Shown here: piece after piece, positions 21,980-36,310 of the stretch
Numbering within the stretch: position 1 is the stretch's first letter
Layout of the letters: each line of letters starts with the position of its first letter
Source of the DNA: an uncultured Clostridia bacterium
GTDB taxonomy: Bacteria; Bacillota; Clostridia; Oscillospirales; Ruminococcaceae
Assembly: GCA_946617595.1 (NCBI GenBank)
Contig: CAMOKN010000035.1
Coordinates: 1 to 36,565 of the forward strand
Length of the DNA stretch: 36,565 bases
Reading direction: 5' to 3'
Position numbers and translations under genes: made by a program
Notes under the pieces: generated by a model
Told to the model about the DNA's origin: nothing
The model's database searches: none
Seen by the model: only the letters and a program-made list of their open reading frames with translations

Positions 21980-22008
21980 TTGACAAACACGTATATACGT
22001 GTTATAAT
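21980..22008 (+). promoter_or_regulatory. hicAB promoter with palindromic operator in the spacer
   Basis: TTGACA (21980-21985), 17-bp spacer and TATAAT (22003-22008). The spacer contains the perfect 16-bp palindrome ACACGTATATACGTGT (21987-22002), placed so that bound HicB would exclude RNA polymerase. This matches the usual autoregulation of hicAB operons by the antitoxin. Confidence 0.85.
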
Positions 22009-22028: not shown

Positions 22029-22211
22029 ATGAGAGACAAAGACTTATTAAAGGCTCTCCTGAAAGACGGGTGGACGGAAGTCAGAGTTCACGGCAGTCAC
22101 CACATCATTCAAAAGGGAAACCAAATTGAGACCGTTCCCGTTCACGGTAAAGATGTTCCGACAGGGCTGCTGAACAAAATTCTGAAAAACACGGGGCTGA
22201 AAACAAAGTAA
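22029..22211 (+). CDS. hicA: HicA-family mRNA interferase toxin
   Basis: 60 aa, the usual HicA size. The double-stranded RNA-binding-like fold is evident from LLKDGWTEVRVHGSHHI, with the conserved catalytic His in GSHH (H24), and VPVHGKDVPTGLLNKILKNT. HicA cleaves mRNA when free of HicB. The start has AAGGAGG 5-8 nt upstream. It is first in the operon, with the antitoxin gene 33 bp downstream. The pair probably stabilises the prophage or acts in phage defence. Confidence 0.93.
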   Translation: MRDKDLLKALLKDGWTEVRVHGSHHIIQKGNQIETVPVHGKDVPTGLLNKILKNTGLKTK

Positions 22212-22244: not shown

Positions 22245-22646
22245 ATGAAACTTATTTATCCGGCAATATTTCACACAGAAGAAGGCAGCGTATGGGTTGA
22301 GTTTCCCGATCTTGACGGCTGCAATTCCTACGGAGACGACATATCCGATGCACTCGACAACGCAAAGGAAGCTCTTGAAGGATACTGCATGGTACTTCTC
22401 GAACAGAAGAAGCCTCTTCCGAAAGCAAGCTCCATTTCAAAAATGAAAGTCAGTGCAGACGCATTCCCCACACTTGTAGAGACCGACCTTTCAACAGCTC
22501 TTGCAAAGAACAAGTCTGTAAAGAAAACCCTTACTATTCCTGCTTGGCTCAATGATATGGCAACCGATCGCGGTATAAACTTCTCACAGGTGCTTCAAAA
22601 CGCACTGTTTGAGCAAATGGAGATAAGCAAGTACGATAATGCGTAA
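22245..22646 (+). CDS. hicB: HicB-family antitoxin and autorepressor
   Basis: 133 aa. The N-terminal partially degraded RNase H-like fold is clear (YPAIFHTEEGSVWVEFPDLD followed by GCNSYGDDISDALDNAKEAL). The C-terminal KKTLTIPAWLNDMA and NFSQVLQNALFEQM is a ribbon-helix-helix DNA-binding domain, the likely reader of the palindrome in the hicA promoter. GGAGGT lies 6 nt upstream of the ATG. Its 3' end faces the predicted small RNA encoded on the opposite strand. Confidence 0.93.
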   Translation: MKLIYPAIFHTEEGSVWVEFPDLDGCNSYGDDISDALDNAKEALEGYCMVLLEQKKPLPKASSISKMKVSADAFPTLVETDLSTALAKNKSVKKTLTIPAWLNDMATDRGINFSQVLQNALFEQMEISKYDNA

Positions 22647-22649
22647 AAA

Positions 22650-22718
22650 GTAAAAATCCCCTCACCGACTGCAATCAGTGAAGGGATGAGCCCGGAGTAT
22701 TGCTACCCGAACCTCGAC
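22650..22718 (-). ncRNA. Predicted ~70-nt small RNA between hicB and the integrase
   Basis: No ORF fits here. A consensus promoter on the - strand (22725-22753) would start transcription near 22718. The transcript would form a first hairpin with a GCAA (GNRA) tetraloop (stem GTTCGG-GTA with TAC-CCGGGC plus GAG/CTC, two single-base bulges). A second hairpin follows (ATCCCTTCACTG with the GGTGAGGGGAT arm) and ends in TTTTTACTTTTT. Start point and length are inferred from the signals. I know no named RNA family that matches. Confidence 0.6.
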
Positions 22719-22724
22719 AGATAA

Positions 22725-22753
22725 AGTATAGCATATCTCCGTGAAAATGTCAA
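22725..22753 (-). promoter_or_regulatory. Consensus promoter of the predicted small RNA
   Basis: On the - strand TTGACA (22748-22753), exactly 17 bp, then TATACT (22725-22730) preceded by TGC (extended -10). It points away from the integrase toward hicB and has no protein gene to serve, which is the main argument for a non-coding transcript. Confidence 0.75.
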
Positions 22754-22767
22754 CTTTCAGGCCGAAA

Positions 22768-22786
22768 TTTGCAGATTTTCTGCAAA
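22768..22786. repeat. Perfect inverted repeat upstream of the integrase
   Basis: TTTGCAGA and TCTGCAAA, 8 bp each with a TTT loop, end 24 bp before the integrase ATG. It could be a regulator or excisionase site, or an RNA hairpin close to the AAGGAGG of the integrase. Confidence 0.5.
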
Positions 22787-22810
22787 AATCGCATTTAAGG
22801 AGGTATTCTA

Positions 22811-23833
22811 ATGGCAACTGCGAAAAAACTACCATCAGGGAGTTACCGCGTCCGGGTCTATGACAAACGGACTGGTAAAACGAGGTCATTCACAGCTGAC
22901 ACGAAAAAAGAAGCTGAATTTCAGGCGAATGAATGGCTGCTCACGCGTAAAGAAAAGCCGGCGGACTTAACCCTTGACAAAGCGATAGATAAATATATAG
23001 AGAGCAAGTCAAATACCCTCTCCCCTTCTACGATTCGTGGATATAAGATTGCCCAGAGAAACGCATACGAGAGCATAAAGGATCTCAAACTTGAACAGCT
23101 GAGCGAGTTAAGACTTCAAAAATGGGCAAATGAGAATGCAGCGAGATATTCACCCAAATCAATCAATAATCAGTTCGGACTTCTGTCTGCTGTCCTCAAA
23201 CAGAACAAGATCCGGCTCGATATGGACGAGATCATGCTGAAACCGAAGGAAAAGAGGGAGTACAATGTTCCGTCCCCCGATGACTTGTCTGTCATCATAA
23301 AAGCAATTAACGGAAAAAGCTGCGAAATACCTGTGCTTATCGCAATCATGTGCGGATGTCGGCAGTCCGAAATAGCAGCTCTCCTTTGGAAAGACTACGA
23401 TGGATCCACAATACACATACACGCAGCTGTAGTTCCCGATGAAAACGGAAAGCTTGTACGAAAAGAGCGCCCGAAATCCTATGCAAGCAACAGGATAATT
23501 GAAGTTCCGGAATATCTGAAACAGATCCTTGATGCAGATGAATGTAAAAATGAACACATAAGTCCATTCAGAACGACATCGGGTGTTCTGAGAGCTTTTC
23601 AGAAGATATGCACTGATCTCGGTCTCCCGAAATACAAGATGCATGAGCTCCGCCACGCTTACGCTTCCATGATGCTTAAAGAAGGAGTACCGGACAAATA
23701 TGCAATGGAAAGACTCGGGCAGAGCACTCCATACATGATAAAACAAGTGTATCAGCACACTTTCCGCTCTGAGCAGGAGGCTGCCGCCATCAAGATCAAC
23801 AACGCTATGGATAAGCTCGCAAAAATTTTGTAA
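22811..23833 (+). CDS. int: Phage integrase, tyrosine recombinase
   Basis: 340 aa. The N-terminal arm-binding domain (GSYRVRVYDKRTGKTRSFT) is followed by the core-binding SAM-like domain (about 52-135) and the catalytic domain. Catalytic residues are R184 (CGCRQSE), K222 (RPKS), H278-x-x-R281 (HELRHAY) and nucleophile Y314 (KQVYQHT). The usual His/Trp in LGHS is Gln here (Q304, RLGQS). AAGGAGG lies 6 nt before the ATG. It ends about 75 bp from the tRNA 3' fragment that marks the attachment site, the usual arrangement for tRNA-targeting integrases. No separate excisionase gene was recognised. Confidence 0.95.
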   Translation: MATAKKLPSGSYRVRVYDKRTGKTRSFTADTKKEAEFQANEWLLTRKEKPADLTLDKAIDKYIESKSNTLSPSTIRGYKIAQRNAYESIKDLKLEQLSELRLQKWANENAARYSPKSINNQFGLLSAVLKQNKIRLDMDEIMLKPKEKREYNVPSPDDLSVIIKAINGKSCEIPVLIAIMCGCRQSEIAALLWKDYDGSTIHIHAAVVPDENGKLVRKERPKSYASNRIIEVPEYLKQILDADECKNEHISPFRTTSGVLRAFQKICTDLGLPKYKMHELRHAYASMMLKEGVPDKYAMERLGQSTPYMIKQVYQHTFRSEQEAAAIKINNAMDKLAKIL

Positions 23834-23906: not shown

Positions 23907-23937
23907 CGAAAGGGTTCAAATCCCTCTTTCTGCGCCA
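23907..23937 (+). other. Prophage attachment site: 3' end of a tRNA gene
   Basis: AGGGTTCAAATCCCT is a T-stem and loop, TTTCTGC a 3' acceptor strand, then discriminator G and encoded CCA (23935-23937). No 5' half of a tRNA precedes it, so this is the fragment displaced by integration and the intact gene should be at the far left end of the prophage. The outer T-stem pair (23910 A with 23926 C) does not match, which suggests that sequence left of about 23911 is phage DNA. The amino acid identity cannot be fixed from this piece; a Ser-type tRNA is possible. Confidence 0.8.
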
Positions 23938-24000: not shown

Positions 24001-24157
24001 GGGTACCTCTAAAAACCGCTTTGAAAAGAGAAAATGTGGCAGCCGTGTCGAAGACGAGGAAAGGCTCCGAAGGCTTGCTGGCGCAAGGTGAGGAGACTTG
24101 ACGAAATATTCGACGCGGATGACTCGTTTTCTCTCAAATGGGTTTTTAGAGATTCCC
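24001..24157. repeat. 157-bp palindromic element with inverted-repeat ends
   Basis: GGGTACCTCTAAAAACC (24001-24017) and the reverse of it at 24141-24157 match at 15 of 17 positions. Inside, GAAAAGAGAAAA pairs with TTTTCTCTC, CCGTGTCGAA (24043-24052) pairs with TTCGACGCGG (24109-24118) and CTTGC with GCAAG around a TGGC loop. The whole element can fold as one long hairpin. Its right end touches the rsmG stop codon. It has no ORF of its own. It looks like a MITE-type or REP-like repeat. Confidence 0.7.
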
Positions 24158-24843
24158 TAAAGTGGTTTTTTTGCTATTTTAGCGGATACCCGCGGATACT
24201 GCGGCGGAGTCTCTCTGATCTTCTCAATAATTACCAGATTTCTTTTATCTCCGCCCGGAAGTGTGTATTTTTTTACATCGGCTATCTTTCCGCCAAGAGT
24301 TTTTATTGCATTCTCTGCATCTGCTGTCTCGTCTTTTTCTCCCTTTAACGCAATGAATATTCCTCCCGTTTTTACAAACGGTATGCAATATTCACACAGC
24401 AAGTTCAGGGCTGCTACAGCTCTTGCACACACCATTCCGAACTTTTCACGGTAATTCTTGTCCTGTCCGAGTTCTTCACCGCGGGCATGAACTGTTTTAC
24501 AGTCAAGTCCGAGCAGCTTACAAGCCGAATCGAGATAAGTTATTCTTTTATTTCCGCTGTCGATCAGTGTAAAGTCAAGGTCGGGACGGTATATTTTCAT
24601 CGGAAGCGACGGAAATCCGGCACCTGCTCCGACGTCAGCACAAATTGTTCCATGTGGAACATTTACCATTGTCAGCGGAAGAATACTGTCGATATAGTGT
24701 TTTTCGATTATGTCACTAAGTTCGGTAATGCGGGTCAGGTTTACTTTTTTGTTGTACTCGGTCATGTATTCCGCAAGAGTAACCAGCAGGTGTTCCTGCT
24801 CATCGTTTATTTCTATCCCGCAAGCTCTGAACTCATTTTTCAT
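24157..24843 (-). CDS. rsmG: 16S rRNA (guanine-527-N7)-methyltransferase RsmG
   Basis: 228 aa from ATG 24843; an earlier TTG would add ten residues. The SAM-binding region [19 protein letters not shown] and the flanking [14 protein letters not shown] and HYIDSILPL are diagnostic of RsmG (GidB). The C-terminus extends past the usual end with a Lys/Pro-rich tail, and its stop codon coincides with the end of the palindromic element. It overlaps mnmG by 11 nt in the conserved mnmG-rsmG order. Codons VPHGTI are written over a parS-like palindrome (24646-24661). Confidence 0.95.
24646..24661. promoter_or_regulatory. parS-like site 1 (inside rsmG)
   Basis: TGTTCCATGTGGAACA is a perfect palindrome close to the bacterial parS consensus TGTTTCACGTGAAACA. 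The same 16-mer recurs at 26975-26990. It should be a ParB (Spo0J) loading site near the origin. Confidence 0.7.
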
Positions 24844-26698
24844 CTTCGCTTTCCTTTCCTGAATTTGCCGCAAGCCATATCAGAAGCACTGATATGTCAG
24901 CCGGATTCACTCCTGATATTCTTCCGGCTTGTCCTATATTAAGCGGACGATGAAGATTCAGCTTTTCCTGTGCTTCAAGACGCAGACCGGATATTTTTGT
25001 GTAATCTATATCGGGCGGAAGCTTTTTTGTTTCAAGCCGTTTCATTTCTTTGATCTTGGCAAGCTGTGTTTTGATATATCCCTCATATTTTATGTTTGTC
25101 TGTATTTTTTCCGCAATGTCAGTTCTTATGTGCGGATCGTTCTCATCGAACTTTATCAGATCAAAATAAGATATCTGCGGTCTTCGGAGTATCTCGATGA
25201 ATTTTACTCCCTGATCTATGGGCGATGTTCCCTTTTCTTCAAGCATCTTGTTCAGCTCTTCGGAAGGTCTTATAGTTGCCTTTTTGATTCTGGCAGTCTC
25301 TTCATCTACGATCTTTTTCATACTAAGGTAGTTCTCATATCTTTCGTCTGAAATAAGACCTATCTCATGTCCGAGTTCAGTAAGACGCTCAGGTGCATTA
25401 TCCTGACGGAGGATCAGTCTGTACTCGCTGCGTGATGTCATCATTCTGTACGGTTCAACACAACCTTTAGTAACAAGATCGTCGATGAGAGTTCCGATAT
25501 ACGAGTTTGAACGGTCGAGTATTATCTGTTCAAGTCCTTTGATTTTACGTGAAGCGTTTATCCCTGCAACAAGACCTTGTGCTGCTGCTTCTTCATATCC
25601 CGAAGTAGAATTGAACTGCCCTGCCCCGTACAGACCCGATATTTTTTTTGTTTCGAGGGTTGCAAACAGATCGAGCGGATCGAGACAATCATATTCTATA
25701 GCATACGCCGGACGCATTATCTCAACATTTTCAAGCCCTTTTATCGTTCTCAGAAATGCGAGCTGAACATCTTCGGGAAGCGATGTTGACATTCCCTGTA
25801 AATAGTATTCGTCCGTATCGAGTCCCATTGGTTCAACAAAGAGCTGATGACGTTCTTTATCCTTGAACCGCATTAGTTTTGTTTCTATGCTTGGACAGTA
25901 TCTCGGTCCCACACCGACTATCTTTCCGGAATACAGAGCCGACCTGTCAAGATTTTCAAGTATAATTCTGTGAGTTTCTTCATTTGTATATGTTACATAG
26001 CAATCTGCTTTATTTTCAAGTGGAAATTTATTATCGAATGAGAAGGGCGTGATATCATCATCGCCGCTCTGTTTTTCCATTTTTGAAAAGTCTATGGATC
26101 TTTTATGCACTCTTGCGGGAGTGCCGGTCTTGAATCTTCTGATATTGAGTCCGAGTTTTCTCAGACTTTCAGTAAGTTCTCCTGACGGATTCACATTATC
26201 CGGTCCGCTTTTATAAGAAGTCGTTCCGATAAATATTTCACCGCCGAGATATGTTCCGGTAGTTATTATCACTGCTTTTGCGGAACAGAATCCTCCGAGT
26301 TTTGTAATTACGCCGGTCACTTTATTATTTTCGGTACAAATTTCAGTGACCTCTGCCTGTTTTATATCAAGCAAAGGTTCACTTTCAAGAGTATGCTTCA
26401 TAAACGTGTGATATTTCACACGGTCTGACTGTACGCGCAGAGAATGTACTGCCGGACCCTTTCCCCTGTTCAGCATTCGTGACTGGATAAACGTAGCGTC
26501 CGCAGCAATTCCCATTTCTCCTCCGAGCGCATCTATCTCACTTACGAGCTGACCTTTAGCAGATCCGCCGATGCTCGGGTTGCACGGCATATTTGCAATT
26601 GTATCGAGTGACAGCACAAACACAGCTGTTTTCATTCCGAGTCTTGCCGCCGCAAGTGCTGCCTCACATCCCGCATGTCCGGCTCCGACTACTGCCAC
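24833..26698 (-). CDS. mnmG: tRNA uridine-34 5-carboxymethylaminomethyl modification enzyme MnmG (GidA)
   Basis: 621 aa as drawn from GTG 26698. The FAD-binding loop [39 protein letters not shown] and [11 protein letters not shown] are unmistakable. It partners MnmE to modify the wobble uridine of several tRNAs. The drawn start cuts the first beta strand short. The upstream in-frame codons read YNIGEYDV before VAVVG, matching the normal N-terminus, but contain no ATG, GTG or TTG. The only well-placed start is ATA at 26720-26722, 8 nt from AAGGAG. The true protein is probably 8 residues longer. Confidence 0.95.
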
Positions 26699-26756
26699 AT
26701 CATATTCACCGATATTATATATAGTATCAGCTCCTTAGTTTTTTTACAAGATTTGG

Positions 26757-26772
26757 TGTTCTACGTGGAACT
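26757..26772. promoter_or_regulatory. parS-like site 2
   Basis: TGTTCTACGTGGAACT, an imperfect copy of the parS palindrome, lies in the gap upstream of mnmG. It keeps the central ACGTGGAAC arm. Confidence 0.6.
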
Positions 26773-26793
26773 TTTATTACTGCGCTTAGGAAT

Positions 26794-26892
26794 GTTGAGA
26801 TAATCGCTGCGCTTGAGATCGTTGAGACTGTCGCTGCGCTTGAGATCGGGGCTCTGCCCCGAACCCCGCTTCTTTTCAAAGTGAAAAGAAGC
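26794..26892. repeat. Tandem 27-bp repeats plus two hairpins in the mnmG upstream gap
   Basis: Two 27-bp units (26794-26820 and 26821-26847) share TCGCTGCGCTTGAGATC and differ at three positions. They are followed by GGGGCTCTGCCCC (26848-26860) and a perfect 11-bp stem GCTTCTTTTCA/TGAAAAGAAGC (26868-26892). A 76-codon reading frame on the - strand across it (26761-26991) is repetitive and probably not a gene. It looks like a dispersed intergenic repeat element. Confidence 0.6.
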
Positions 26893-26974
26893 AAAAGCTA
26901 CTCGCTTCGCAATTAAATCACAAAGATTTTGCTGCTCTCTTTGATTATCTTTAAGAATTATATAAGAATAAAAT

Positions 26975-26990
26975 TGTTCCATGTGGAACA
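26975..26990. promoter_or_regulatory. parS-like site 3
   Basis: TGTTCCATGTGGAACA, identical to the site inside rsmG, sits in the intergenic gap between the aldolase and mnmG. Confidence 0.7.
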
Positions 26991-27034
26991 CAAAATATGG
27001 AAAAATTTCAGAAAATTTTGTCTAAATATAGAAA

Positions 27035-27718
27035 TTAAAGGCTGTATTTTTTGTAGCCCGGGTGTCTTATCGGAAATGCTTTTGCAATATCACAGCATTC
27101 GTCGATCTTCTCTCTCGGCAGTTCTTTTGCTCCGCCAAGAAGCCTTGCAACAAGTGTGGTCTTTGCAAAATGTTCGAGTGTTTCCATTCTGTAATAAGCC
27201 TGAGTTATATCTACTCCAAGAGTAAGAGCACCATGATTCATAAGAAGTATAGTATCATGATCCGGAAGAAAAGGTTCGATGCTGTCGGGAACTTCTGTTG
27301 TTCCGGGTGTGCCGTAAGGTGCAATCGGTACTGAACCAAGGAATATTATTGCTTCGGGCATCGTGTAGTTATCAAGCGGGATATGTGCGATCGCAAACCC
27401 TGTCGCAACAGGTGGATGAGCATGAACTACAGCTCCGATATCCGGTCTGTCTTTATAGCATTTCAGATGCATCTTGAATTCAGATGACGGTCTGTACCCC
27501 TCCGGACAATAAATAACTTCATTGTCTGCGCTCATCTTGATAAGCATTTCAGGTGTAAGGATCCTCTTGCTCGTGCCGGTTGGAGTTGCAAGAAATGTTC
27601 CGTCATCAAGCTTTACCGAAATGTTTCCGTCATTTGCAGCAACCATTCCGAGCTGCCAGAGGTTGTGACCTACCTCACATATCTGTTCTTTGATCTTATA
27701 TTCTTCTGCTTCTGTCAT
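27035..27718 (-). CDS. Class II aldolase/adducin family protein (fuculose- or ribulose-phosphate aldolase-like)
   Basis: 227 aa. The zinc ligands appear in VVHAHPPVA (two His) and LMNHGALTLG (third His), with the catalytic Glu in YTMPEAI and the substrate loop GNISVKL and TPTGTSK. Members cleave sugar phosphates to dihydroxyacetone phosphate plus an aldehyde, or act as epimerases. The exact substrate cannot be read off, and no sugar-pathway neighbours are present. It stands as a single gene with its own promoter (27779-27807). Confidence 0.85.
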   Translation of the reverse strand: MTEAEEYKIKEQICEVGHNLWQLGMVAANDGNISVKLDDGTFLATPTGTSKRILTPEMLIKMSADNEVIYCPEGYRPSSEFKMHLKCYKDRPDIGAVVHAHPPVATGFAIAHIPLDNYTMPEAIIFLGSVPIAPYGTPGTTEVPDSIEPFLPDHDTILLMNHGALTLGVDITQAYYRMETLEHFAKTTLVARLLGGAKELPREKIDECCDIAKAFPIRHPGYKKYSL

Positions 27719-27750
27719 TTTGTATCTGTTCCTTTCTGAAAAAATTCAAT

Positions 27751-27807
27751 AATGGGTTTTTAGAGGTTCCCTGATATTATTATAGCATATGAATGTTTTT
27801 ATTGCAA
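27751..27807 (-). promoter_or_regulatory. Aldolase promoter with a 22-bp motif shared with the palindromic element
   Basis: On the - strand TTGCAA (27802-27807), 17 bp, TATAAT (27779-27784) with extended TGC. Just downstream of the start point, 27751-27772 matches the right end of the 157-bp element (24137-24158) at 21 of 22 positions. The motif is therefore in the 5' leader of the aldolase mRNA. Confidence 0.7.
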
Positions 27808-27815
27808 TAAAAAAA

Positions 27816-28673
27816 TCAAAAATCCGGAGTCATATCAAGATTGTCGCAGCCTTTCTCCTGCATGAATCCTTCAAGTCCCAGTTCAGCGCATCTGTCAGTT
27901 ACTTTTTCATATTCAAAAGTTGTGAGCTTACGATTTATCTCCTTGAATCTGACTGCGTCATAACAGGGTGTGTACTGACGCATGATGCTCACAAGTGGTC
28001 GGATATCAAGCGAAGCAAGCTTTTCCATAAGTAAAATACTGTCGTGATATCCTTTTGGAAGAACAAGATGTCTAACTATAACACCTTTCTTCATGATGTT
28101 CCCGTGGAACTTTGCTTCCGGCTGCTGACGCAGCATTTCTTTTAATGCAGGAAAAGCAAAATCAAAATAATCTGCCGCACAGGAATATTTTCCGGACATC
28201 TCACTGCTGTAGAATTTAAGATCAGGCAGGTAGATATCTACAAGTCCTTCGAGCATTTTCAGAGTCTCAACATTCTCATATCCGCCGCAATTATATACTA
28301 CAGGGATACCGAGTTCTTTTTTGCATACTGAAAGAACTTCCGCTATCTTATCAGCAAAGTGTGTTGCTGTTACAAGATTGATATTATGCGCACCTTTTTC
28401 TTTAAGCTCGAAAAAAATATCTCTCAGACGAGAGAGGCTTATTTCTTCACCTTTAAGGTCATGGCTGATAGGATAGTTCTGACAGAAAGCACATTTCAGA
28501 TTGCAGCCGGAAAAAAATACTGCACCGCTCCCGTTTTTACCGCTTATACATGGTTCTTCACCGAAGTGCAACATATATTTAGATATTCTAATTTTATCTT
28601 TACAGCCACAGTATCCTGCTTTTACACTTCTGTCAATACCGCATCTTCTCGGGCAGAGGAAACACTCACTCAT
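27816..28673 (-). CDS. Radical SAM protein, PFL-activating enzyme-like (COG1313 type)
   Basis: 285 aa. The cluster motif is FSGCNLKCAFCQNYPIS (CxxxCxxC), with an N-terminal CLCPRRCGIDR and GYCG set of extra Cys residues found in this subgroup. Later segments (HINLVTATHFADKI-like, VYNCGGYE, LPDLKFYS) agree with the PflA-like radical SAM barrel. It probably activates a glycyl radical enzyme or a related partner that is not encoded here. It overlaps the start of the upstream 411-aa gene's end by 8 nt. Confidence 0.85.
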   Translation of the reverse strand: MSECFLCPRRCGIDRSVKAGYCGCKDKIRISKYMLHFGEEPCISGKNGSGAVFFSGCNLKCAFCQNYPISHDLKGEEISLSRLRDIFFELKEKGAHNINLVTATHFADKIAEVLSVCKKELGIPVVYNCGGYENVETLKMLEGLVDIYLPDLKFYSSEMSGKYSCAADYFDFAFPALKEMLRQQPEAKFHGNIMKKGVIVRHLVLPKGYHDSILLMEKLASLDIRPLVSIMRQYTPCYDAVRFKEINRKLTTFEYEKVTDRCAELGLEGFMQEKGCDNLDMTPDF

Positions 28674-29901
28674 TTTTTTTCAGCTCCCTTGAAAATTTTT
28701 CCGCCCGCTCAAATGAATACAGTATCTCTCCCTGATACTCCGGGTCTTCTCTGTAATCATTTATATCAAAATTTGAAAGCTTATAGCAGAATGAAACAAC
28801 AACCGTATATTGTTTCATAAGCATGATCTTGTCCATAAAATTCCAGTAATTATCTATAGTATGTTTTTTTATGTACTGTCTTAGCTGACCATTCATTCCA
28901 TCAAATCTGAAAATACTCTCACATACTGATGCAAGAGATGCCGCGGCATAATATATCGAATAGTTGTCCATTATACTGCCGAGGTCATTCATATTTACAA
29001 CAGGAAGATCTATATGTGCAAATGATTTTATTATCTTTATGAACATATTTGCTATCTCAACACCGTTGCAGTTGCAAATTATGGTAAGAAGATCGCTTGT
29101 GAGATCAGACAGCTTTTTTTCTCTTTCGTCTTCTGAGTTTTCAAAAACTGTATTTTTTGAATACAGATCCTCCAGCTTATAACCGCCGTATGCTATGGCA
29201 AACAGAACTGAGAAATTGATCCTTGTCTTTGTATTTGAAAGATCTGCAACAAACTTATTTCTGTTTGCATACATAACAGCGTTTATTTCTTCAACTTCAG
29301 CAGGTCTGCTGTTAAGTCTGAGATTCGTACTGAAACGGCGGTAATTATATTTATCAATAAGTTCTTTATACTGGATCGAATTCTGCATTCCGAACTTTAC
29401 CGCAGCGAGTCTGACGGATTCGATGACAGTTTTTGCATATTTATTCAGCTCATAGCCTTTTTCTTCTTTTTTCTTTCTTTTTTCAATGAGCTTTTTCTTT
29501 GAAGAAGAATTTTCCGGCATATCATTAAGCAGCTCAAGGTATGTGTATTCCGGCTCTCCGACAAAAACGTGTTCTCCCCTGCACATCACTTTTGATATTC
29601 TTACAAATTCGCCTATATACAATTTTTTCAGAAGAAAAGCTGTTTTTATGATATCCTTGTCTTTATCCCTGACTTTTGTAAGATACATCTCACAGCATTC
29701 CGAAAAAGCTTTTTCATTTATAAAAACAAGATCGAATAAATCTATACCGAGTTTATCAGCCGCATATCTGCAATTGCTTTCAAAAATATATTCCTTTATT
29801 CTGATAAGATAACCGACCGTATTTTTTTCACTCAGGATAGTGCGGGGAGAAAAGGCGAAAGTCCTTATGCACTTAGGAACATCTGTCAGAGAGATCAGCA
29901 T
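28666..29901 (-). CDS. Hypothetical protein, 411 aa
   Basis: No family recognised. The protein is cytoplasmic-looking, Lys/Glu/Asn-rich and mostly helical. It has a basic stretch KKKLIEKRKKKEEKGYELNK around residue 135-155, and VIESVRLAAVKFGMQNSI after it. There is no signal peptide, membrane segment or catalytic motif that I can see. Start ATG 29901 has GGAAGGTG about 12 nt upstream. It overlaps the radical SAM gene by 8 nt, so they are probably cotranscribed, with rsmI 61 bp upstream. Confidence 0.75.
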   Translation of the reverse strand: MLISLTDVPKCIRTFAFSPRTILSEKNTVGYLIRIKEYIFESNCRYAADKLGIDLFDLVFINEKAFSECCEMYLTKVRDKDKDIIKTAFLLKKLYIGEFVRISKVMCRGEHVFVGEPEYTYLELLNDMPENSSSKKKLIEKRKKKEEKGYELNKYAKTVIESVRLAAVKFGMQNSIQYKELIDKYNYRRFSTNLRLNSRPAEVEEINAVMYANRNKFVADLSNTKTRINFSVLFAIAYGGYKLEDLYSKNTVFENSEDEREKKLSDLTSDLLTIICNCNGVEIANMFIKIIKSFAHIDLPVVNMNDLGSIMDNYSIYYAAASLASVCESIFRFDGMNGQLRQYIKKHTIDNYWNFMDKIMLMKQYTVVVSFCYKLSNFDINDYREDPEYQGEILYSFERAEKFSRELKKNE

Positions 29902-29962
29902 ATAAGAACAATCACCTTCCTCTAAAATATTTTATCAAATACCAGACTATATGGAAATAAAA

Positions 29963-30790
29963 TCAGTTCTTAGTGATAAGATTATATATCTCACTTTTTG
30001 AGAAACCATATCTTTTTGCAGCTTCTTTACAAGCTTCCGAAGCCTTCTTCCCTGCCCCGATCTCTGATTCTGCAAATTTCACCGCTTCTTCTATACTATA
30101 TATAATAGTATCCGATTTTTCGGGAGCACCCTCAACAACAAGAACATATTCACCTTTCGGAGTCTTATCCGAATAATAGCTTATCATTTCGGAAACAGTT
30201 CCTCTCAGAACTTCTTCATGAATTTTTGTAAGCTCGCGGCAAAGTGATATTTTTCTGTCTCCAAGTGCTTCAAGAAGATCATCGAGTGTATTTTTCAGTT
30301 TATGAGGAGCTTCATAGAAAATAAGAGTTCGTTTATAATTTTTTATTTCATCGAGATGTTCTTTCCGTTGTTTTTTTGTAACACTCAGAAATCCCTCAAA
30401 AGAAAATCTCGATGTCGGAAGACCGGATATTGCAAGTGCAGACATAGCTGCCGTCGGTGAAGGGACCACATTTATTTCTATCCCACGTTCGGCGCAGATA
30501 CGAACAAGATCTTCACCGGGATCTGATATACACGGCATACCGGCATCGGTCACAATAGCGCACGTCTCTCCTGCCGATATTCTGTCCGCAATATACTCTC
30601 CCTTTTCACGGAGATTATGTTCATAGTAGCTGACAAGAGATTTTTTTATACCGAAATGAGTCAGTAATTTCAAAGTGACTCTGGTATCTTCAGCTGCAAT
30701 AAAATCCACAGAACTGAGAACTTCAAGAGCTCTCGGTGACATATCCGAAAGGTTTCCTATAGGAGTTCCTACCACATAAAGCTTTGACAT
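29963..30790 (-). CDS. rsmI: 16S rRNA (cytidine-1402-2'-O)-methyltransferase RsmI
   Basis: 275 aa. VVGTPIGNLSDMSPRALEVL, AAEDTRVTLKLLTHF and VTDAGMPCISDPGEDLV are the classic tetrapyrrole-methylase-fold signatures of RsmI. It methylates the ribose of C1402 in 16S rRNA near the decoding site. Length matches the family. It is the first gene left of the long AT-rich gap, whose downstream edge should hold its promoter. Confidence 0.95.
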   Translation of the reverse strand: MSKLYVVGTPIGNLSDMSPRALEVLSSVDFIAAEDTRVTLKLLTHFGIKKSLVSYYEHNLREKGEYIADRISAGETCAIVTDAGMPCISDPGEDLVRICAERGIEINVVPSPTAAMSALAISGLPTSRFSFEGFLSVTKKQRKEHLDEIKNYKRTLIFYEAPHKLKNTLDDLLEALGDRKISLCRELTKIHEEVLRGTVSEMISYYSDKTPKGEYVLVVEGAPEKSDTIIYSIEEAVKFAESEIGAGKKASEACKEAAKRYGFSKSEIYNLITKN

Positions 30791-31429
30791 TTTGTTTCAC
30801 CATACTAATATCATAAATTGTTCATAACAGGTTCATATACATTACTTTTACCCGGATATACCCTCTTTAAAACACGATAAAAAAGCCATTTTTTAACTTA
30901 TTCAACCGAGTTTTCAACTGTTCATAGCTTCAAAACGGTTTAAAACCAAATACTTTTCAACAGTTTCAACTGTTTTTCAGGGGAAAAAAATCTTTTTACA
31001 AAAAGTTTATTTGCAAAAAAATCCGGCTTTTACAAAAAGTTTATAATGTTTATAAATTAAATTTTAAAAAAATCTGCAAACCCTATTGTTTATCAACTTT
31101 TTGAATATTCTAAATAATTCACAAAAAAACGGTTATAAATTATGCATAATTAACAATAAAAATGATAATGTTTACATCATTTTCGGGTTGAAAAAAAGAA
31201 TTCGACATAATATTCACAAAATACGACAGTTATCGCATTTCTAACATTTTCAACCAACTTTTCAACAGAAATATCTGTTGAAAACTATTTTTCAACAGAT
31301 TTTAACATCTTTCTGAAAATCGGGTACAAATTCAGATTTTGGTTACAGTTCAGTGACAATAATACAAAAAGTAGAAATATTGTCCTTGACAATTTCTAAA
31401 AATCTGTTCAATGCATGGAGGATAGTAAT
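30791..31429. other. AT-rich non-coding gap with clustered TTCAAC motifs
   Basis: About 640 bp without a convincing ORF. It contains TTTTCAACA or its reverse at 30954, 31259, 31276 and 31289, and related TTCAAC or ATCAAC motifs at 30898, 30911, 30963, 31090 and 31247. It has long A/T runs and the palindromic TTATGCATAA region near 31140. Similar motifs occur between dnaA and dnaN. It may be an accessory DnaA-binding or origin region; the motif differs from the usual TTATCCACA box, so this is open. Confidence 0.45.
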
Positions 31430-31691
31430 GAAAGGTGTAAACAAACTTGTGGTAGAGATCAGACCTGAAGGAGACTATTTTGAAAAAGCTCTTCTGTTCA
31501 TAAAAGCAGATAAGCAGGAATTACCTCAGAAAGATATATCCGAACAAGCTGATAAATTACTATCTGATATATCTGTTACAAAAAATAACAAAAAGTCAAA
31601 TAAATTTGATTCCCTGCTTCTTATTTCTGCCGGAATATTAACTGGTTCGGCTGTTACAGCTGCCGTTTTGTTCATATCAGGTCTTCTGTGA
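31430..31691 (+). CDS. Small C-terminally anchored membrane protein, 86-87 aa
   Basis: ATG 31430 follows GGAGG at the right distance; an upstream in-frame ATG at 31353 has no such site. The N-terminal half (VNKLVVEIRPEGDYFEKALL) is soluble and the last 25 residues (LLLISAGILTGSAVTAAVLF) form one transmembrane helix, so the protein is probably tail-anchored with the N-terminus in the cytoplasm. Family unknown to me. It is the only + strand gene in the host block, and its end overlaps the end of remB by 20 bp tail to tail. Confidence 0.65.
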
Positions 31692-31926
31692 TATTCTTAA
31701 AACGCTTCCGGAGAGTCATGCAGCTGACATTACTGATATATACAACATCAGAACATACTATAATACTCTTAGGCATATCAAGCGACACATAGTATATTTT
31801 ACCATTTTTTTGACAATATGATAAATATTCGTTCATATATTTATCTACGGTAACTTTTTCTATATCAAAAATTCCTATTATTTCGCTTGTCTGAACCGAG
31901 ATATCACTTCCAAGATGCAAATACAT
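31672..31926 (-). CDS. remB: DUF370 / RemB (YaaB)-family protein
   Basis: 84 aa. MYLHLGSDISVQTSEIIGIF and the later PKSIIVCSDVVYISNVS are the conserved signature of the YaaB/RemA-like family, which lies between recF and gyrB in Bacillus. RemA and RemB are DNA-binding regulators of matrix and osmoprotection genes in Bacillus; the role here is unknown. It directly follows recF with no gap. In this window gyrB does not follow; the next gene is the + strand membrane protein. Confidence 0.85.
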   Translation of the reverse strand: MYLHLGSDISVQTSEIIGIFDIEKVTVDKYMNEYLSYCQKNGKIYYVSLDMPKSIIVCSDVVYISNVSCMTLRKRFKNITEDLI

Positions 31927-33060
31927 TTAACTTTCCCTTATCTCAAATCTGCCGTTTTCAACGTTCCAGATCTTCCCATGTCCGAATTTATCTGTATCTG
32001 AAAAATTACAAGAAGTAATAAATATCTGAAAATTATCAATATGATTAATAATAAAGCTTCTTCTGAACTCATCAAGCTCGCTCAGAACATCATCAAGAAT
32101 TATTATAGGAACATCGTTGCTCTTATCGAGTATCATCTTTGCTTCCGCAAGTTTCAGAGCTACGGCAATGCTGCGTATCTGTCCCTGTGAAGCAAAATCC
32201 TTTGCCGGCATATTATTTATCCTGAATGAAACATCGTCTCTGTGCGCTCCGACAACAGTATATTTCATTCTTAGCTCACGATCCGCGGTTTCTCTGAGCC
32301 TGCGAAGATATGTTTCATACATGATCTCAAAATCATCAGCAGTGAATCCCTTGTCTCCCATAACAGTGCTGTCGTAATTCATAGATAATATTTCATTGCT
32401 GCGGTTTATCATTCCGTAATATTCATTTGCAAATGAAGCGAGCATATCAAAGTATTTGATACGTCCGCACATAACATTTACACCAAGACGAGCTATAGTA
32501 TCATTCCAGCTTTCAAGCATCATCTTATTGGTGCTGTTATATTCGTTCATATTCATCAGGATATTGTTCTTCTGACGCAGGGCTTTATTATATTCATAAA
32601 GCTTAGAATTATGAACACGATTTATCATATTTGACACAAAATCAATATAATTGCGTCTTTTTTCGGGATCTCCCTTAACAATATATAGATCTTCAGGTAT
32701 AAAAATTACATATCTTAACGCACCGTATAATTTTTCTGCCTCTTTAAATTCTATCCCATTGAATTTCAGACGGAAGCTGTTCTTTTTCTGTACATAAGAA
32801 ATTGTGTTATCTTTATCCGGAAATTCATCAAATGTAAAACAGATCTCTATATATGTCTCATCATTTTCATTCCCGAAAGGAAGAAGTTCACTTATCTTCG
32901 GATTCCTGAAACTTTTTCCGAGACATACTGAAATAGCCTCACACAGATTAGTTTTGCCCTGGGCATTGTTACCGGTGAATATGTTCACCTTCGGGTCAAA
33001 AATAAAATCAGCAGAGGCTATATTTCTGAAATTTCTGACAGTTAAAGATCTGATTATCAT
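31927..33060 (-). CDS. recF: DNA replication and repair ATPase RecF
   Basis: 377 aa from ATG 33060 (MIIRSLTVRNFRNIASADF), which matches the normal RecF N-terminus. An in-frame ATG at 33102 would add 14 atypical residues. The P-loop is FTGNNAQGKTNLCEAI, the signature region is DFASQGQIRSIAVALKLAEA and Walker B is VPIIILDDVLSEL. RecF loads RecA at gapped DNA with RecO and RecR. No good ribosome binding site is visible before either start, and a hairpin repeat sits 46-100 bp upstream. Confidence 0.95.
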   Translation of the reverse strand: MIIRSLTVRNFRNIASADFIFDPKVNIFTGNNAQGKTNLCEAISVCLGKSFRNPKISELLPFGNENDETYIEICFTFDEFPDKDNTISYVQKKNSFRLKFNGIEFKEAEKLYGALRYVIFIPEDLYIVKGDPEKRRNYIDFVSNMINRVHNSKLYEYNKALRQKNNILMNMNEYNSTNKMMLESWNDTIARLGVNVMCGRIKYFDMLASFANEYYGMINRSNEILSMNYDSTVMGDKGFTADDFEIMYETYLRRLRETADRELRMKYTVVGAHRDDVSFRINNMPAKDFASQGQIRSIAVALKLAEAKMILDKSNDVPIIILDDVLSELDEFRRSFIINHIDNFQIFITSCNFSDTDKFGHGKIWNVENGRFEIRES

Positions 33061-33106
33061 TACTGAAATTTCGCTTTCGCTCGGGATTTGATTGCTTCGC
33101 ATGAGA

Positions 33107-33152
33107 CTGGGGAAAACCTTTTGTGAACAAAAGGTTCTTCCCCAGACCCCTT
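33107..33152. repeat. Hairpin repeat between recF and the S4 gene
   Basis: CTGGGGAAAACCTTTTGT and ACAAAAGGTTCTTCCCCAG pair along almost their full length with one unpaired base and a 2-nt loop. ACCCC follows the right arm. It splits the replication-gene cluster just before recF and looks like an inserted intergenic repeat unit. It lacks a T-run on the - strand, so termination is uncertain. Confidence 0.65.
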
Positions 33153-33222
33153 TCCAAAAAACTTTACATAATCAATAATAAAGATACTTTTATACTAATT
33201 GTAAAATACAAGACCATATTTT

Positions 33223-33453
33223 TCAGATGTTTTCTATTATACACCTGTATTCTTCTGTTCCTTCTTCAAAGTTCAAAGATACAATATCGTTGTTGTAGAT
33301 CTTTTTACCGCGCATTGTGCATACTTCACCGTTTACTTCAACTATACCGTCCTGTATCATGAGTTTTGCCATTCCACCTGTCTCAGCTATATTCCCGAAT
33401 TTGAGAAATTGCTCCAGCTTTATGAACGGAGGATCTACTTTTATTTCTGTCAT
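33223..33453 (-). CDS. S4-domain RNA-binding protein (YaaA/RlbA type)
   Basis: 76 aa. FIKLEQFLKFGNIAETGGMA followed by KLMIQDGIVEVNGEVCTMRG is an S4 RNA-binding domain and fills the whole protein. The position between dnaN and recF is conserved in Firmicutes, where the homologue is YaaA, implicated in ribosome assembly. Start ATG 33453 has AAGGT 8 nt upstream; it follows dnaN by 21 bp and is probably cotranscribed with it. Confidence 0.9.
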   Translation of the reverse strand: MTEIKVDPPFIKLEQFLKFGNIAETGGMAKLMIQDGIVEVNGEVCTMRGKKIYNNDIVSLNFEEGTEEYRCIIENI

Positions 33454-33474
33454 ATAATTACCTTATGTATAATT

Positions 33475-34575
33475 TTATTTATTTCTTACAGGAAGTACAA
33501 TTCCAACAAAACTGTCATCGTTCATAGGTCTGATCCTTATCGGGAATAAAGCTCCTGTAAAATCTATGCGAACTTCGTCACATTCACTGTTCTTCAGCGC
33601 GTCTATCATGTACTTTGCGTTGAAAGCTATCTCCAGCTTCTCACCGCTGTACTTTATCGGAATAACATCGCTCATCTTTCCGACAGATGTTTTTATGTCG
33701 ATATGAAGCTCGTCATTTTCAAATACACAGATGACCGGGCATTTATATTTGTCTGTATTCAGAAGCAGCGTTCTGTCAAGAGATGTAGAAAAATCAACAG
33801 CATTAACGATCGCCGTCATTTTTTCCTCAAAATTCATTATCTTGTCATAATCAATGAAGTTTCCTTCCAGAAGACGAGAGATAATGATATAGTCTTCTTT
33901 TGAAAAACATATCTGATTTCTGTCGATGCATACCGATATCTTCTTCTCGTTCGGCTCGTCAGAAAGCATTTTCATAAATTCATCAAGTGTTTTCTTCGGA
34001 ACAACAAAATCTATGTCATTATATTCCACAGGCTCGACACGTTTTGCCATTCTTACACCGTCAACCGAAACAACACTGAGAATATTGTTCTCAATGTGAA
34101 ATTTGCTTCCCATGTGAACAGGCTTTATATCCGTAAGAGCAACCGCATGTATAGTCTGACGTATCATGCTCTTCATAACGGATTCATCAACATAGAATGT
34201 AATATCCTTTTTAAGTTCAGGTATATTAGGATAATTGTCACCCGATACTCCAACTACGTTATATACTACAGAACCTGATTTTATAGTGACATTATCCCCT
34301 TCAGAAGATATCTCAACTTCTCCTGAAGGCATTTTTCTTATCATTTCACCGAAAATTTTTGCATTTACTACTATTTCTCCGTCCTCTATCGCTTCAGTCG
34401 GAGAAACTATGCACTTGATACCAAGCTCAAGATCATATCCCGTAATAGTGATGACATTATCTTTCAGATTAATAAGTACACCTTCAAGAGCAGGAATGGT
34501 AGAACGTACCGCACTTGCTTTTGAAGCATTTACAAGTGCATCGGATAAAACACTTCTGTCGATAGAAAATTTCAT
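33475..34575 (-). CDS. dnaN: DNA polymerase III beta subunit (sliding clamp)
   Basis: 366 aa, normal length. MKFSIDRSVLSDALVNASKA, TIPALEGVLINLKD and the C-terminal LFPIRIRPMNDDSFVGIVLPV are characteristic, the last forming the partner-binding pocket. Three clamp-fold repeats span the protein. It lies 343 bp downstream of dnaA. The start ATG 34575 follows GAAAGGAAAACGAAA. Confidence 0.97.
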   Translation of the reverse strand: MKFSIDRSVLSDALVNASKASAVRSTIPALEGVLINLKDNVITITGYDLELGIKCIVSPTEAIEDGEIVVNAKIFGEMIRKMPSGEVEISSEGDNVTIKSGSVVYNVVGVSGDNYPNIPELKKDITFYVDESVMKSMIRQTIHAVALTDIKPVHMGSKFHIENNILSVVSVDGVRMAKRVEPVEYNDIDFVVPKKTLDEFMKMLSDEPNEKKISVCIDRNQICFSKEDYIIISRLLEGNFIDYDKIMNFEEKMTAIVNAVDFSTSLDRTLLLNTDKYKCPVICVFENDELHIDIKTSVGKMSDVIPIKYSGEKLEIAFNAKYMIDALKNSECDEVRIDFTGALFPIRIRPMNDDSFVGIVLPVRNK

Positions 34576-34918
34576 TTTCGTTTTCCTTTCGTATTTGTAA
34601 ATGATAAGAAAAATCAGATCAGAACAAAAATAAATATATTATTTTATAGTATTTGTTATAGGGGCGGGAAAAGTGTGGAAAACCATATTTTTCCTTTTTA
34701 TTATCCTTAATTTCGCAGTTGATTATATGGTTGATTATTTGTTGGAAATGTTGAATCGGTTTTCAACATTTTCACATTTGAACTTTTACCTTTTAACGGG
34801 CAGAGGAAAGTTGAATAAATGTTTAAAATTAATTAATATAACTAATATTATATGATATTAAAATATATGTCATTGAATACATTATTCAACTGCGTGTAAC
34901 GCTGTTACATAGTAAATA
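34576..34918. other. dnaA-dnaN intergenic region, AT-rich with DnaA-box-like motifs
   Basis: 343 bp without a gene. TGTGGAAAA (34674-34682, reverse of TTTTCCACA) is one base from the standard DnaA box TTATCCACA. TTTTCAACA at 34760 and TTATTCAAC at 34882 (and reversed at 34810) recall the motifs at 30.9-31.3 kb. The A/T-only stretch at about 34825-34880 could be an unwinding element. Part of oriC may lie here, as in other Firmicutes where the origin flanks dnaA. Confidence 0.5.
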
Positions 34919-36310
34919 TCACATATTTCCTATGTTTTTGATAAGGTCTTCAACAGTAGCACGGTATGCGGGATCTGTCTGCATAACTTTTTTAACCTTA
35001 TTTGTTGCATATACTACGGTCGAATGATCTCTTCCTCCGAATTCTTTACCTATAGATGTATATGAAAGATCTGTTACCTTGCTTATTACGTACATAGCGA
35101 CCTGACGTGCGGTAGAGACCTGAGAATTGCGGTTCTTGGACTTCATTTCGTCCGGAGAAACATTGAATATGTGTGAAACATCGGTTATTACGTGTTCTAC
35201 AGTTACCGGAACAGGCTGCTGTTCAGTCATGACATCTTTTATGATATTCTGTGCCATTATAATAGTAGGGGTCGTACCTGTAAGGAACACAATATGGTAC
35301 ATCTTTACTATAGCGCCTTCGATCTGACGGATATTGTTCTTTAGTTTATCCGCCATATATTCCATAACATTATTTGGTATCTTGATATTCATGAGTTCTG
35401 CCTTGCGCTTTATTATTGCAAGACGAGTCTCAAACTCAGGAGCTGCTATATCGGTGAGAAGTCCCCATTCAAATCGGGTAATAAGTCTTGTTTCGATATC
35501 GTTTATCTCTTTCGGAGGACGATCTGAGGTGAGAATGATTTTCTTATTTCTTCTGTGAAGCTCTTCAAATGTATGGAAAAGTTCATTCTGTGATTCTTTT
35601 TTTCCTGAGAAGAACTGAACATCATCGACAAGCAGCATTTCTGCGCTTCTGTATTTTTTCTTGAATTCTTCGGTAGTATTTGTTTTTACGCTGTTTACAA
35701 ATTCGCTTACAAAAGTTTCGGCAGAAACATATACTATATTATAATCGGGGTGATGAGATTCGACCTCATTTTTTATTGCATAAAGAAGGTGAGTTTTTCC
35801 GAGTCCCGGCTCACTGTAAATATAAAGCGGATTGAAATCAGCTTTATCCTGAGCTATAGACCGGCATGCAGAACAAGCGAGCTTGTTGCTCTCGCCTACT
35901 ATAAAAGTATCGAATGTATATTTATAATTGCTGTTTTCTTCAGTCTCATGCATTCTTGATTTTGCATAAGGATCGTCGTCGAGCTCAGGGATAGGATCTG
36001 AAAGGCGCACGATCTCCTCCGGAGAAACGGACTTATCTTCATTTGTAACATATTCTATATCAACTTCAAAACCGAGGATCTCTTTGAGCTGTTTTTTGAA
36101 GATCTCGTCATAATTTTCTTTAATAACTTTTTTGATCCAGTCGTTGGTAATATAAAGAACAGCGGTCTTGTTGTTCAGTTTAAGAGGCTTTATAGGATCT
36201 ATGAAAAGCTTTTTTGCAGTCTCGGTGATATTAAGACTTTCTTTCATAAGCTCGAAAATATCACTGAAAGAATTCATTTCTTTCTTTTTAGATTCAGCGG
36301 AAAATTCCAT
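34919..36310 (-). CDS. dnaA: Chromosomal replication initiator DnaA
   Basis: 463 aa. Domain III has the Walker A loop SEPGLGKTHLLYAI and the Walker B region EMLLVDDVQFFSGK, with DRPPKEINDIETRLITRFEW for sensor and arginine-finger parts. Domain IV carries the DNA-binding signature TARQVAMYVISKVTDLSYTS and GGRDHSTVVYA (Ser where many species have Thr). It binds DnaA boxes and opens the origin. Start ATG 36310 follows AAAGGAAAGGAAATTTA. The promoter is at 36351-36379. Confidence 0.98.
   Translation of the reverse strand: MEFSAESKKKEMNSFSDIFELMKESLNITETAKKLFIDPIKPLKLNNKTAVLYITNDWIKKVIKENYDEIFKKQLKEILGFEVDIEYVTNEDKSVSPEEIVRLSDPIPELDDDPYAKSRMHETEENSNYKYTFDTFIVGESNKLACSACRSIAQDKADFNPLYIYSEPGLGKTHLLYAIKNEVESHHPDYNIVYVSAETFVSEFVNSVKTNTTEEFKKKYRSAEMLLVDDVQFFSGKKESQNELFHTFEELHRRNKKIILTSDRPPKEINDIETRLITRFEWGLLTDIAAPEFETRLAIIKRKAELMNIKIPNNVMEYMADKLKNNIRQIEGAIVKMYHIVFLTGTTPTIIMAQNIIKDVMTEQQPVPVTVEHVITDVSHIFNVSPDEMKSKNRNSQVSTARQVAMYVISKVTDLSYTSIGKEFGGRDHSTVVYATNKVKKVMQTDPAYRATVEDLIKNIGNM

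Follow-up and report, generated by a model that had tools for sequence, protein, structure and literature searches.

A candidate antisense-RNA switch on the ribosome-binding site of a prophage integrase gene in Clostridia

In the window (the whole 36,565-nucleotide stretch of DNA from an uncultured Clostridia bacterium that was analysed here), the gap between hicB and a tyrosine integrase gene (int) carries a small RNA (sRNA) unit with promoter, RNA, and terminator that is antisense to the gap and, as read from its sequence, is real. Comparative sequence analysis and folding computations together make it likely that this unit supplies the regulator of a translational switch in which an antisense RNA leads to sequestration of the Shine-Dalgarno sequence (SD) of the integrase. 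The cassette would then be a compact natural translational OFF switch, and it would suggest, at the level of sequence, a way in which some prophages and islands of Clostridia could silence an integrase, whatever its recombinase type. Tyrosine integrases, serine integrases, and DUF4417 genes have this one regulator in common, and the cassette therefore appears to move as a module.

The sRNA unit and its genomic setting

The unit and the genes around it comprise the following features:

21980..22008, plus strand: hicAB promoter, TTGACA-17-TATAAT, matching the consensus at 12/12 positions
22029..22211, plus strand: hicA toxin gene, a neighbor that is not in the switch (PF07927, E 1.2e-17)
22245..22646, plus strand: hicB antitoxin gene, a neighbor that is replaced in relatives (PF15919, E 3.3e-14)
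22656..22687, minus strand: intrinsic terminator of the sRNA, a 14-pair stem followed by TTTTTACTTTTT
22656..22718, minus strand: predicted antisense sRNA of about 63 nt plus a U tail, its start placed from the -10 box
22725..22753, minus strand: sRNA promoter, with -35 TTGACA at 22753-22748, a 17-bp spacer, -10 TATACT at 22730-22725, and TG before the -10
22811..23833, plus strand: tyrosine integrase gene, the proposed target of the switch (PF00589, E 1.5e-11; PF14659, E 9.2e-6)

The preliminary description had reported the minus-strand promoter (TTGACA, 17 bp, and TATACT with TG), and this reading stands, with the consensus matched at 11 of 12 positions. The structure described there, a bulged stem with a GCAA loop followed by a second stem and a T-rich tail, is likewise recovered: the predicted fold of the sRNA consists of two hairpins, the bulged GCAA stem and the 14-pair terminator stem, and the folding energy of 22640-22720 is -32.6 kcal/mol compared to -19.6 ± 3.0 in 200 dinucleotide shuffles, none of which folded as well. 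The RNA is the complement of the int leader upstream of 22718, perfect over 63 nt. Between 21500 and 24500 there are 7 promoter-like sites that match at least 9 of 12 positions (5.8 ± 2.5 expected, hardly any excess) and 6 terminator-like sites (2.9 ± 2.0 expected). Because weak sites are hardly enriched near the unit, the case for it depends on how close the promoter is to consensus, on the strength of the stem, and most of all on conservation.

The earlier statement that no open reading frame fits is correct as far as the transcript is concerned. One minus-strand frame of 75 aa (22662-22889) crosses the sRNA but starts within int, and a conserved minus-strand peptide, from a VEVRVAIL-like reading of the core, was rejected both for this reason and because two relatives (L065 and L070) have GAGGTTTGA, an in-frame stop. 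The unit was also said to match no known RNA family, which Rfam bears out: Rfam 15 gave no matches in the window at the gathering score, the best sub-threshold match in 22500-22900 reached 14.4 bits compared to a cut-off of 95, and five matches on 17 other loci (tRNA, tmRNA, and skipping-rope RNA) include none at the unit. The DNA of the unit occurs a single time in its own genome assembly. Locus L026 carries an Rfam skipping-rope RNA (RF02924, 51.6 bits) at 860-931, with an integrase about 570 nt downstream.

In the 900 nt before int, no plus-strand promoter matching at least 10 of 12 positions was found besides that of hicAB, nor was any closer one found at a lower threshold, and no plus-strand terminator lies within 260 nt upstream of int. 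On these grounds, int is probably transcribed by read-through from hicAB. The relative L063 has a predicted plus-strand terminator between its upstream gene and the unit, and no plus-strand promoter of 9/12 nearby. On the sRNA strand of L063, some 97-129 nt past the core, T runs flank a stem on both sides; its sRNA terminator and the plus-strand terminator of the upstream GNAT gene are probably one bidirectional stem.

Just after int, at 23912-23937, the window carries a 26-base tRNA 3'-end sequence with an exact second copy on contig C119 of the same genome, where it forms the 3' end of a tRNA-Ser(GCT) gene. The prophage is probably integrated at the tRNA-Ser(GCT) gene, and the assembly would be interrupted at the second junction. 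Beyond the right end of the prophage (24157-36310), genes that read by eye as rsmG, mnmG, rsmI, recF, dnaN, and dnaA suggest a place near the replication origin. We rejected an attachment site or integron attC-like site as an account of the unit, because the tRNA 3'-end repeat lies at the opposite side of int and the unit is common to tyrosine and serine recombinases; a single-strand origin or a conjugative element was set aside by reasoning alone.

Relatives of the unit in phages and islands

Relatives were gathered with sequence patterns and covariance models. The 20-base core pattern GAGGTTCNNGTAGCAATACT (pattern 1) matched 3 viral and 11 genome loci, of which four are relatives: L051 (viral), L057 (recorded as Ruminiclostridium), L058 (Oscillospiraceae, two copies), and L063 (Lachnospiraceae). 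The remaining 10 of these 14 loci are chance matches, and five of the ten we take to be rpsO coding sequence, from an EVQVAIL reading. A looser pattern 2 gave 7 viral loci, adding L065 and L070, with 4 of the 7 due to chance; on viral contigs, pattern 3 gave 12 loci, 3 already known and 9 due to chance. Covariance models R1 and R2, built from 8 and 14 elements, were run on overlapping sets of 396, 394, 20, and 291 genomes, in which 32, 22, 5, and 7 genomes, respectively, passed the model E-values; 19 loci from the 396- and 394-genome searches and 9 from the 396-, 20-, and 291-genome searches were judged by reading. The models added L074 (G368), L102 (G624), L103 (G678), L108 (G694), L078 (G342), L131 (G764), and L075 (G192). 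On the criteria of promoter, palindrome, terminator, and position, we kept G000, G177, G368, G192 (for which position was not applied), G342, G624, G678, G694, and G764. L078, L108, and L131, which have architecture in common more than core sequence, were accepted by eye while the SD idea set out below was already forming, and segment limits for L078, L131, and two further loci, L030 and L031, were set by hand or from promoter positions. Other searches returned little: in 50,697 phage records, blastn with the unit as query gave no match; of 247 genomes of the family searched at the DNA level, 17 matched, and apart from the window itself and G177 none of these matches was better than E 0.02; and viral-contig searches with the integrase and with HicB as query confirmed no relatives.

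Among 17 copies checked, 14 have a minus-strand promoter matching at least 9 of 12 positions at the corresponding place, together with a terminator (window, L051, L057, L063, L065, L070, L071a, L074a, L102a, L103, L108, L078, L131, and L075), while the b copies L071b, L074b, and L102b have neither. In the 14 promoter-bearing copies the terminator lies mostly 20-29 nt past the core start, with L075 at 45 and L063 at 97, about 70 nt farther out than usual. What is conserved across the family is a long imperfect palindrome spanning the promoter and the RNA, and the core TGTCGAGGTTC..GTAGCAATA; terminators differ. At L075 (1501-1566, G192) the core, promoter, and terminator are present with no recombinase beside them in the 3 kb read, and this unit, which is close to a tRNA gene, was perhaps left behind by an element. 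Low-scoring model matches at L077, L104, L105, and L135 are near-perfect palindromes across the -10 regions of promoter-like sites beside unrelated genes, and are probably ordinary operators.

The unit sits 5' of its downstream gene and divergent to it. This gene encodes a tyrosine recombinase in the window and L063 (PF00589), with a fragment in L070 (PF14657 only); a large serine recombinase in L051 and L065 (PF07508) and, from reading of the N-terminal motif, in L057, L078, and L131; and a DUF4417 protein (PF14386) in L074, L103, and L108. DUF4417 is mentioned in one report as a domain fused to ParB-CTPase folds in phages (PMC12704722). The gene on the hicB side varies, being HicB by Pfam and, by eye, a CI-like repressor, a small exported protein, a GNAT protein, or an ImmA/IrrE-like protein. 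Since the downstream recombinase or DUF4417 gene is kept while the hicB-side gene changes, the unit travels with the start of the downstream gene and not with hicB, which argues against the earlier suggestion that it tunes hicB. Loss of the promoter and stems amid conserved flanks had been named as an outcome that would count against the unit; the relatives display the opposite, with promoter and palindrome kept and flanks changed.

Conservation and covariation of the palindrome

The palindrome, with arms at 22693-22705 and 22729-22741, starts upstream of the sRNA's own start. Among members, the arms around the core are complementary yet different in sequence, and inner parts pair too. Over 14 aligned elements we counted 21 double-changed cells compared to 11.3 ± 2.5 in shuffles and a covariation score of 0.204 compared to 0.153 ± 0.013 (0 of 500 shuffles as high in either case), values that are probably undercounts given an alignment not fitted to bulges, and that are to be read knowing that related sequences can exceed such shuffles without structure. 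Sliding the register by 1-3 columns leaves pairing in 30-42% of cells, compared to 72% in the true register; the pair count and pair-type count are less extreme, with 15 and 52 of 500 shuffles as high.

Support across relatives is stronger for the covarying palindrome than for the 5' bulged stem of the preliminary description, for which 4, 18, and 62 of 500 shuffles were as high for paired cells, covariation score, and double-changed cells. We rejected the bulged stem as the defining feature of the family, since its partial retention is less evident than that of the palindrome, for which the figure was 0 of 500 on all three measures.

Three segments in the integrase leader

Read on the mRNA strand, the two arms of the palindrome and the integrase SD form three segments:

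22693..22705, plus strand: segment 1 (pre-emptor, anti-anti-SD), which complements segment 2 and is covered by the sRNA
22706..22720, plus strand: conserved loop between segments 1 and 2, the complement of TGTCGAGG..., from alignments
22729..22741, plus strand: segment 2 (anti-SD), upstream of the sRNA start and hence not covered by the sRNA
22799..22805, plus strand: segment 3, the integrase SD GGAGGTA, shortly before the ATG at 22811

CGGAG at 22693-22697 in segment 1 faces CTCCG at 22737-22741 in segment 2, and TATCTCC at 22734-22740 in segment 2 can also pair with GGAGGTA of the SD. The duplex of segments 1 and 2 in the window is computed at -16.9 kcal/mol (p about 0.01 compared to shuffles), and that of the whole of segment 2 with the SD at -15.7 kcal/mol (p = 0.0055 compared to shuffles). 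These pairings are mutually exclusive, segment 2 pairing either with segment 1 or with the SD region. Because the sRNA start at about 22718 falls between segments 1 and 2, the sRNA covers segment 1 and the loop and not segment 2. The loop belongs to the most conserved stretch of the family in two alignments, and it is the predicted contact region for the 5' end of the sRNA. Control of the integrase had been among the options raised in the preliminary description, and it is the one that gains here, with the complements of both segment 1 and the SD lying in the int leader itself; in sequence terms, a host target in trans is not needed.

In folding computations, segment 2 of all 15 leaders is predicted to pair with segment 1 in the nascent RNA (0.47-0.91 of positions) and, once segment 1 is blocked, with the SD region, again in 15 of 15 (0.17-0.56 of positions), so that binding of the sRNA should close the SD. 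As free full-length molecules, 6 of 15 leaders clearly prefer the pairing of segments 1 and 2 (L057, L065, L071b, L102b, L108, and L131), and the others are mixed or already closed. In 4 of 12 leaders (L057, L065, L102b, and L108), blocking segment 1 lowered the predicted accessibility of the SD by more than 0.1; the shift was smaller than 0.1 in 7, and L070 showed a rise (0.21 to 0.33). The free leader of the window is itself predicted by ViennaRNA to be closed at equilibrium (SD unpaired 0.04 when free and 0.00 with segment 1 blocked), and its ON state would therefore depend on the order of folding during transcription, which is the weakest link of the switch model. For 6 of 8 members the sRNA strand of the element gives a more stable fold than the leader strand does, by 0.7 to 7.7 kcal/mol, which counts against the switch model. 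Between the -35 box and the int SD there is another short palindrome, TTTGCAGATTTTCTGCAAA (22768-22786); it is in part retained in L051 and L057 and sits in the loop of the segment 2:SD stem.

Segment 2 follows the SD of its own gene

Complementarity between segment 2 and the SD of the adjacent gene was assessed against 2,000 dinucleotide shuffles of segment 2, and it reached p < 0.05 in 14 of 15 leaders; the exception is L070 (p = 0.149). Fisher combination gives 3e-18 over the 15 leaders, which are not independent, and 4e-10 over eight hand-picked representatives, one per cluster (window, L063, L065, L071b, L103, L131, L030, and L031). When SDs were permuted among these eight, 0 of 20,000 permutations were as good as the true assignment. 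In a 12 × 12 comparison, where close relatives and strong SDs compete and some SD windows overlapped segment 2, the own SD came top for 4 of 12 arms; the windows of the 15-leader test did not overlap. SD complementarity was no search criterion, and 6 of the 7 leaders found before the SD idea (window, L051, L057, L063, L065, L070, and G177) pass the test. The unit in G192 (L075) was left out, as it has the core without an adjacent SD-bearing gene. Individual leaders illustrate the correspondence: L063 has the SD AAGGAAT instead of GGAGG, and its arm has changed to fit and reads GTTCCT, while in L103 the arm CCTTTCGGGG faces CCCCGAAAGG.

Split systems and pairing between elements

Three genomes, G177 (L071, 16144-16480), G368 (L074), and G624 (L102), have paired copies, an sRNA gene and a target leader, upstream of DUF4417-type genes. 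Copy a has the promoter and terminator, copy b has neither, and the two lie 210, 184, and 203 bp apart, respectively; copy b sits in the leader beside an SD matched by its own arm. The predicted pairing of sRNA a with leader b is -53.6 kcal/mol over 28 positions in G177, -54.4 kcal/mol over 15+10 positions with one mismatch in G368, and -48.4 kcal/mol over 28 positions in G624, where G-U pairs make up for the places at which the two copies differ. Each of the three sRNAs pairs best with its cognate among the three targets, and the G177 sRNA on the G624 target is about as strong as the cognate pairing there (-49.0 and -48.4). Complementarity retained in this way is what base-pairing between RNA and leader would predict. 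In G177 an HTH/ImmA-like gene precedes the pair. The gene after the unit looks by eye decayed or like a remnant in G177 and G624, and the RNA pair is nevertheless kept. In DUF4417-type islands, duplication into a dedicated sRNA gene and a separate target leader would make control copy-number sensitive, as in plasmids.

Pairing is also predicted between elements. With the serine-recombinase loci L051 and L057, the sRNA of the window pairs over 61 of 63 nt of the leader (-129 kcal/mol each); its pairing is weaker with the leaders of L063, L065, and L070 (-56 to -71 kcal/mol) and weakest with those of L103, L131, and L108 (-43, -43, and -36, compared to -25 to -37 for shuffled targets). Because phages with unrelated integrases have a nearly identical sRNA and segment 1, silencing across elements is possible. 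We tentatively raise the idea, which we think somewhat doubtful, of a modular RNA incompatibility cassette: a different phage, on entering the cell, could have its integrase silenced by the sRNA of the prophage already resident, and integration immunity groups would be defined by RNA. If true, sRNAs acting across elements would constitute an RNA layer of superinfection control.

Frequency of the arrangement among recombinases

We surveyed 49 recombinases gathered by protein similarity, comprising 22 integrases and 27 serine-recombinase loci. The integrases are 22 of 37 matches, leaving out the window, 7 weaker loci (L039-L045), and 7 without a locus; of 30 serine-recombinase loci obtained, 3 were dropped for lack of the motif. 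As controls we used 193 other reading frames of at least 120 codons in fetched loci, which are not curated genes. A divergent promoter and terminator, with the -10 within 150 nt of the start, was found for 5 of 49 recombinases and 4 of 193 controls when the promoter matched at least 9 of 12 positions (Fisher p 0.019), and for 3 of 49 and 1 of 193 at 10 or more (p 0.027); for 44 of the 49 recombinases no such unit was found, even at the loose threshold. The full arrangement with both complementarities was found in 2 of 49 recombinases (L030 and L031, noticed by eye before the survey) compared to 0 of 193 controls. The units at these two loci have no evident sequence resemblance to that of the window, and the arrangement is a minority solution that may have arisen more than once.

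Proposed mechanism and competing explanations

In the proposed switch, read-through mRNA from the upstream lysogeny or hicAB operon would carry the int leader, in which segment 1 would pair with segment 2 and leave the integrase SD free. The divergent promoter inside the palindrome would make a short RNA, the exact complement of segment 1 and the loop; by occupying segment 1 this RNA would release segment 2, which would pair with the SD, and the integrase would go untranslated. We infer that the sRNA is made, that int is expressed by read-through, and that the pairing represses translation.

Under plain cis-antisense silencing, the duplex of sRNA and read-through int mRNA would be cut by RNase III, or convergent transcription would halt the read-through, and the SD pairing would stay idle. 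The strong convergent promoter with its terminator and the perfect 63-nt complementarity speak for it, as does the prediction that the free leader of the window already hides its SD; however, it leaves unexplained why the uncovered segment 2 follows each gene's own SD and why three genomes have separate sRNA and target copies, and we regard it as rather improbable.

Strong conservation of the core of about 20 nt across hosts could also be expected of a trans-acting sRNA with host targets, a phage accessory gene whose place beside int is incidental, and prophage sRNAs with other roles are known (STnc6030, PMC7067206). The adjacent leader nonetheless contains the complement of the core, whether by construction or through a second copy, and the SD complementarity is specific to the adjacent gene, which leaves this explanation very little room. 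It seems to us similarly far-fetched that the palindrome serves a repressor dimer as its DNA operator, with arms that differ because each phage has a repressor of its own. The palindrome does overlap the -10 region, and some of the low-scoring model matches (L077, L104, and L105) are palindromic promoters of unrelated genes, but the arms are far apart (about 36 bp from centre to centre in the window) and have single-base bulges, and the match of one arm to the SD of the next gene is not required of an operator. Finally, chance promoter-like and terminator-like sequence without function, which the commonness of weak promoter-like sites in the region might suggest, is hardly conceivable given homologues with replaced terminators and covarying arms and the empty count for the full arrangement among the control frames.

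Comparison with known systems

Among mobile elements, lambda OOP, P22 sar, and IS10 RNA-OUT are antisense RNAs that limit a decision gene or a transposase; none of them is known to have a pre-emptor/anti-SD leader common to unrelated targets. In the full-text literature, consulted through titles and abstract openings and with subscription papers mostly outside its scope, we found no report of an SD switch for an integrase.

A similar setting is found in Streptococcus pyogenes, where antisense sRNAs (SP119_SR034, SR071, SR086, and SR106) lie upstream of prophage integrases and are suggested by the authors of that report to perhaps contribute to integrase silencing in lysogeny (PMC6431027). The likeness lies in an antisense RNA, predicted here, in the gap upstream of a prophage integrase. 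We found an antisense TTGGCA-17-TATAAT promoter and a terminator upstream of int in S. pyogenes phages 315.1 and 315.6; in these two phage leaders segment 2 does not match the SD of int, with 975 and 641 of 1000 shuffles fitting as well. In L171 (315.6) and L172 (315.1) the antisense promoter lies opposite an SD-like AAGGAGG or AAGGGGG; after 2 nt comes an ATG with which a short reading frame upstream of int may begin, and a variant that places a leader peptide under antisense control is possible there. These streptococcal integrase antisense RNAs, known from RNA-seq, are worth testing as switches.

The three-segment logic itself has a counterpart in RNAI/repC of pT181, where a pre-emptor is described that pairs with the 5' arm of the inhibitory stem when the antisense RNA is absent (PMC5703833). 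In that account the inhibitory stem mainly terminates transcription, whereas the segment 2:3 stem of the window has no T run after it: TTCTAATG follows GGAGGTA, and the U run of pT181-type attenuation is thus lacking.

RNAI of pSK41, a staphylococcal plasmid, binds a leader upstream of the start site, and the proposal is that this brings about a stem-loop in which the ribosome-binding site is sequestered while transcription continues (PMC5703833). As described there, both are short counter-transcribed RNAs with their own promoter and terminator opposite a leader (here by sequence), and in both the leader can form an SD-sequestering stem that becomes available on RNA binding (here by computation, and with the logic rather than the sequences compared). 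The pSK41 RNA, of about 83 nt, serves a RepA_N plasmid replication gene, whereas the genes targeted here encode recombinases and DUF4417 proteins in phages and islands, and the unit in the window differs from pSK41, as far as the latter is described there, in having its promoter inside the palindrome of segments 1 and 2. The unit would thus work like pSK41 RNAI and is not a member of its group, the downstream gene being a tyrosine integrase and not a RepA_N initiator: its mechanism is by analogy that of pSK41, and its class of target and its sequence family are apparently undescribed.
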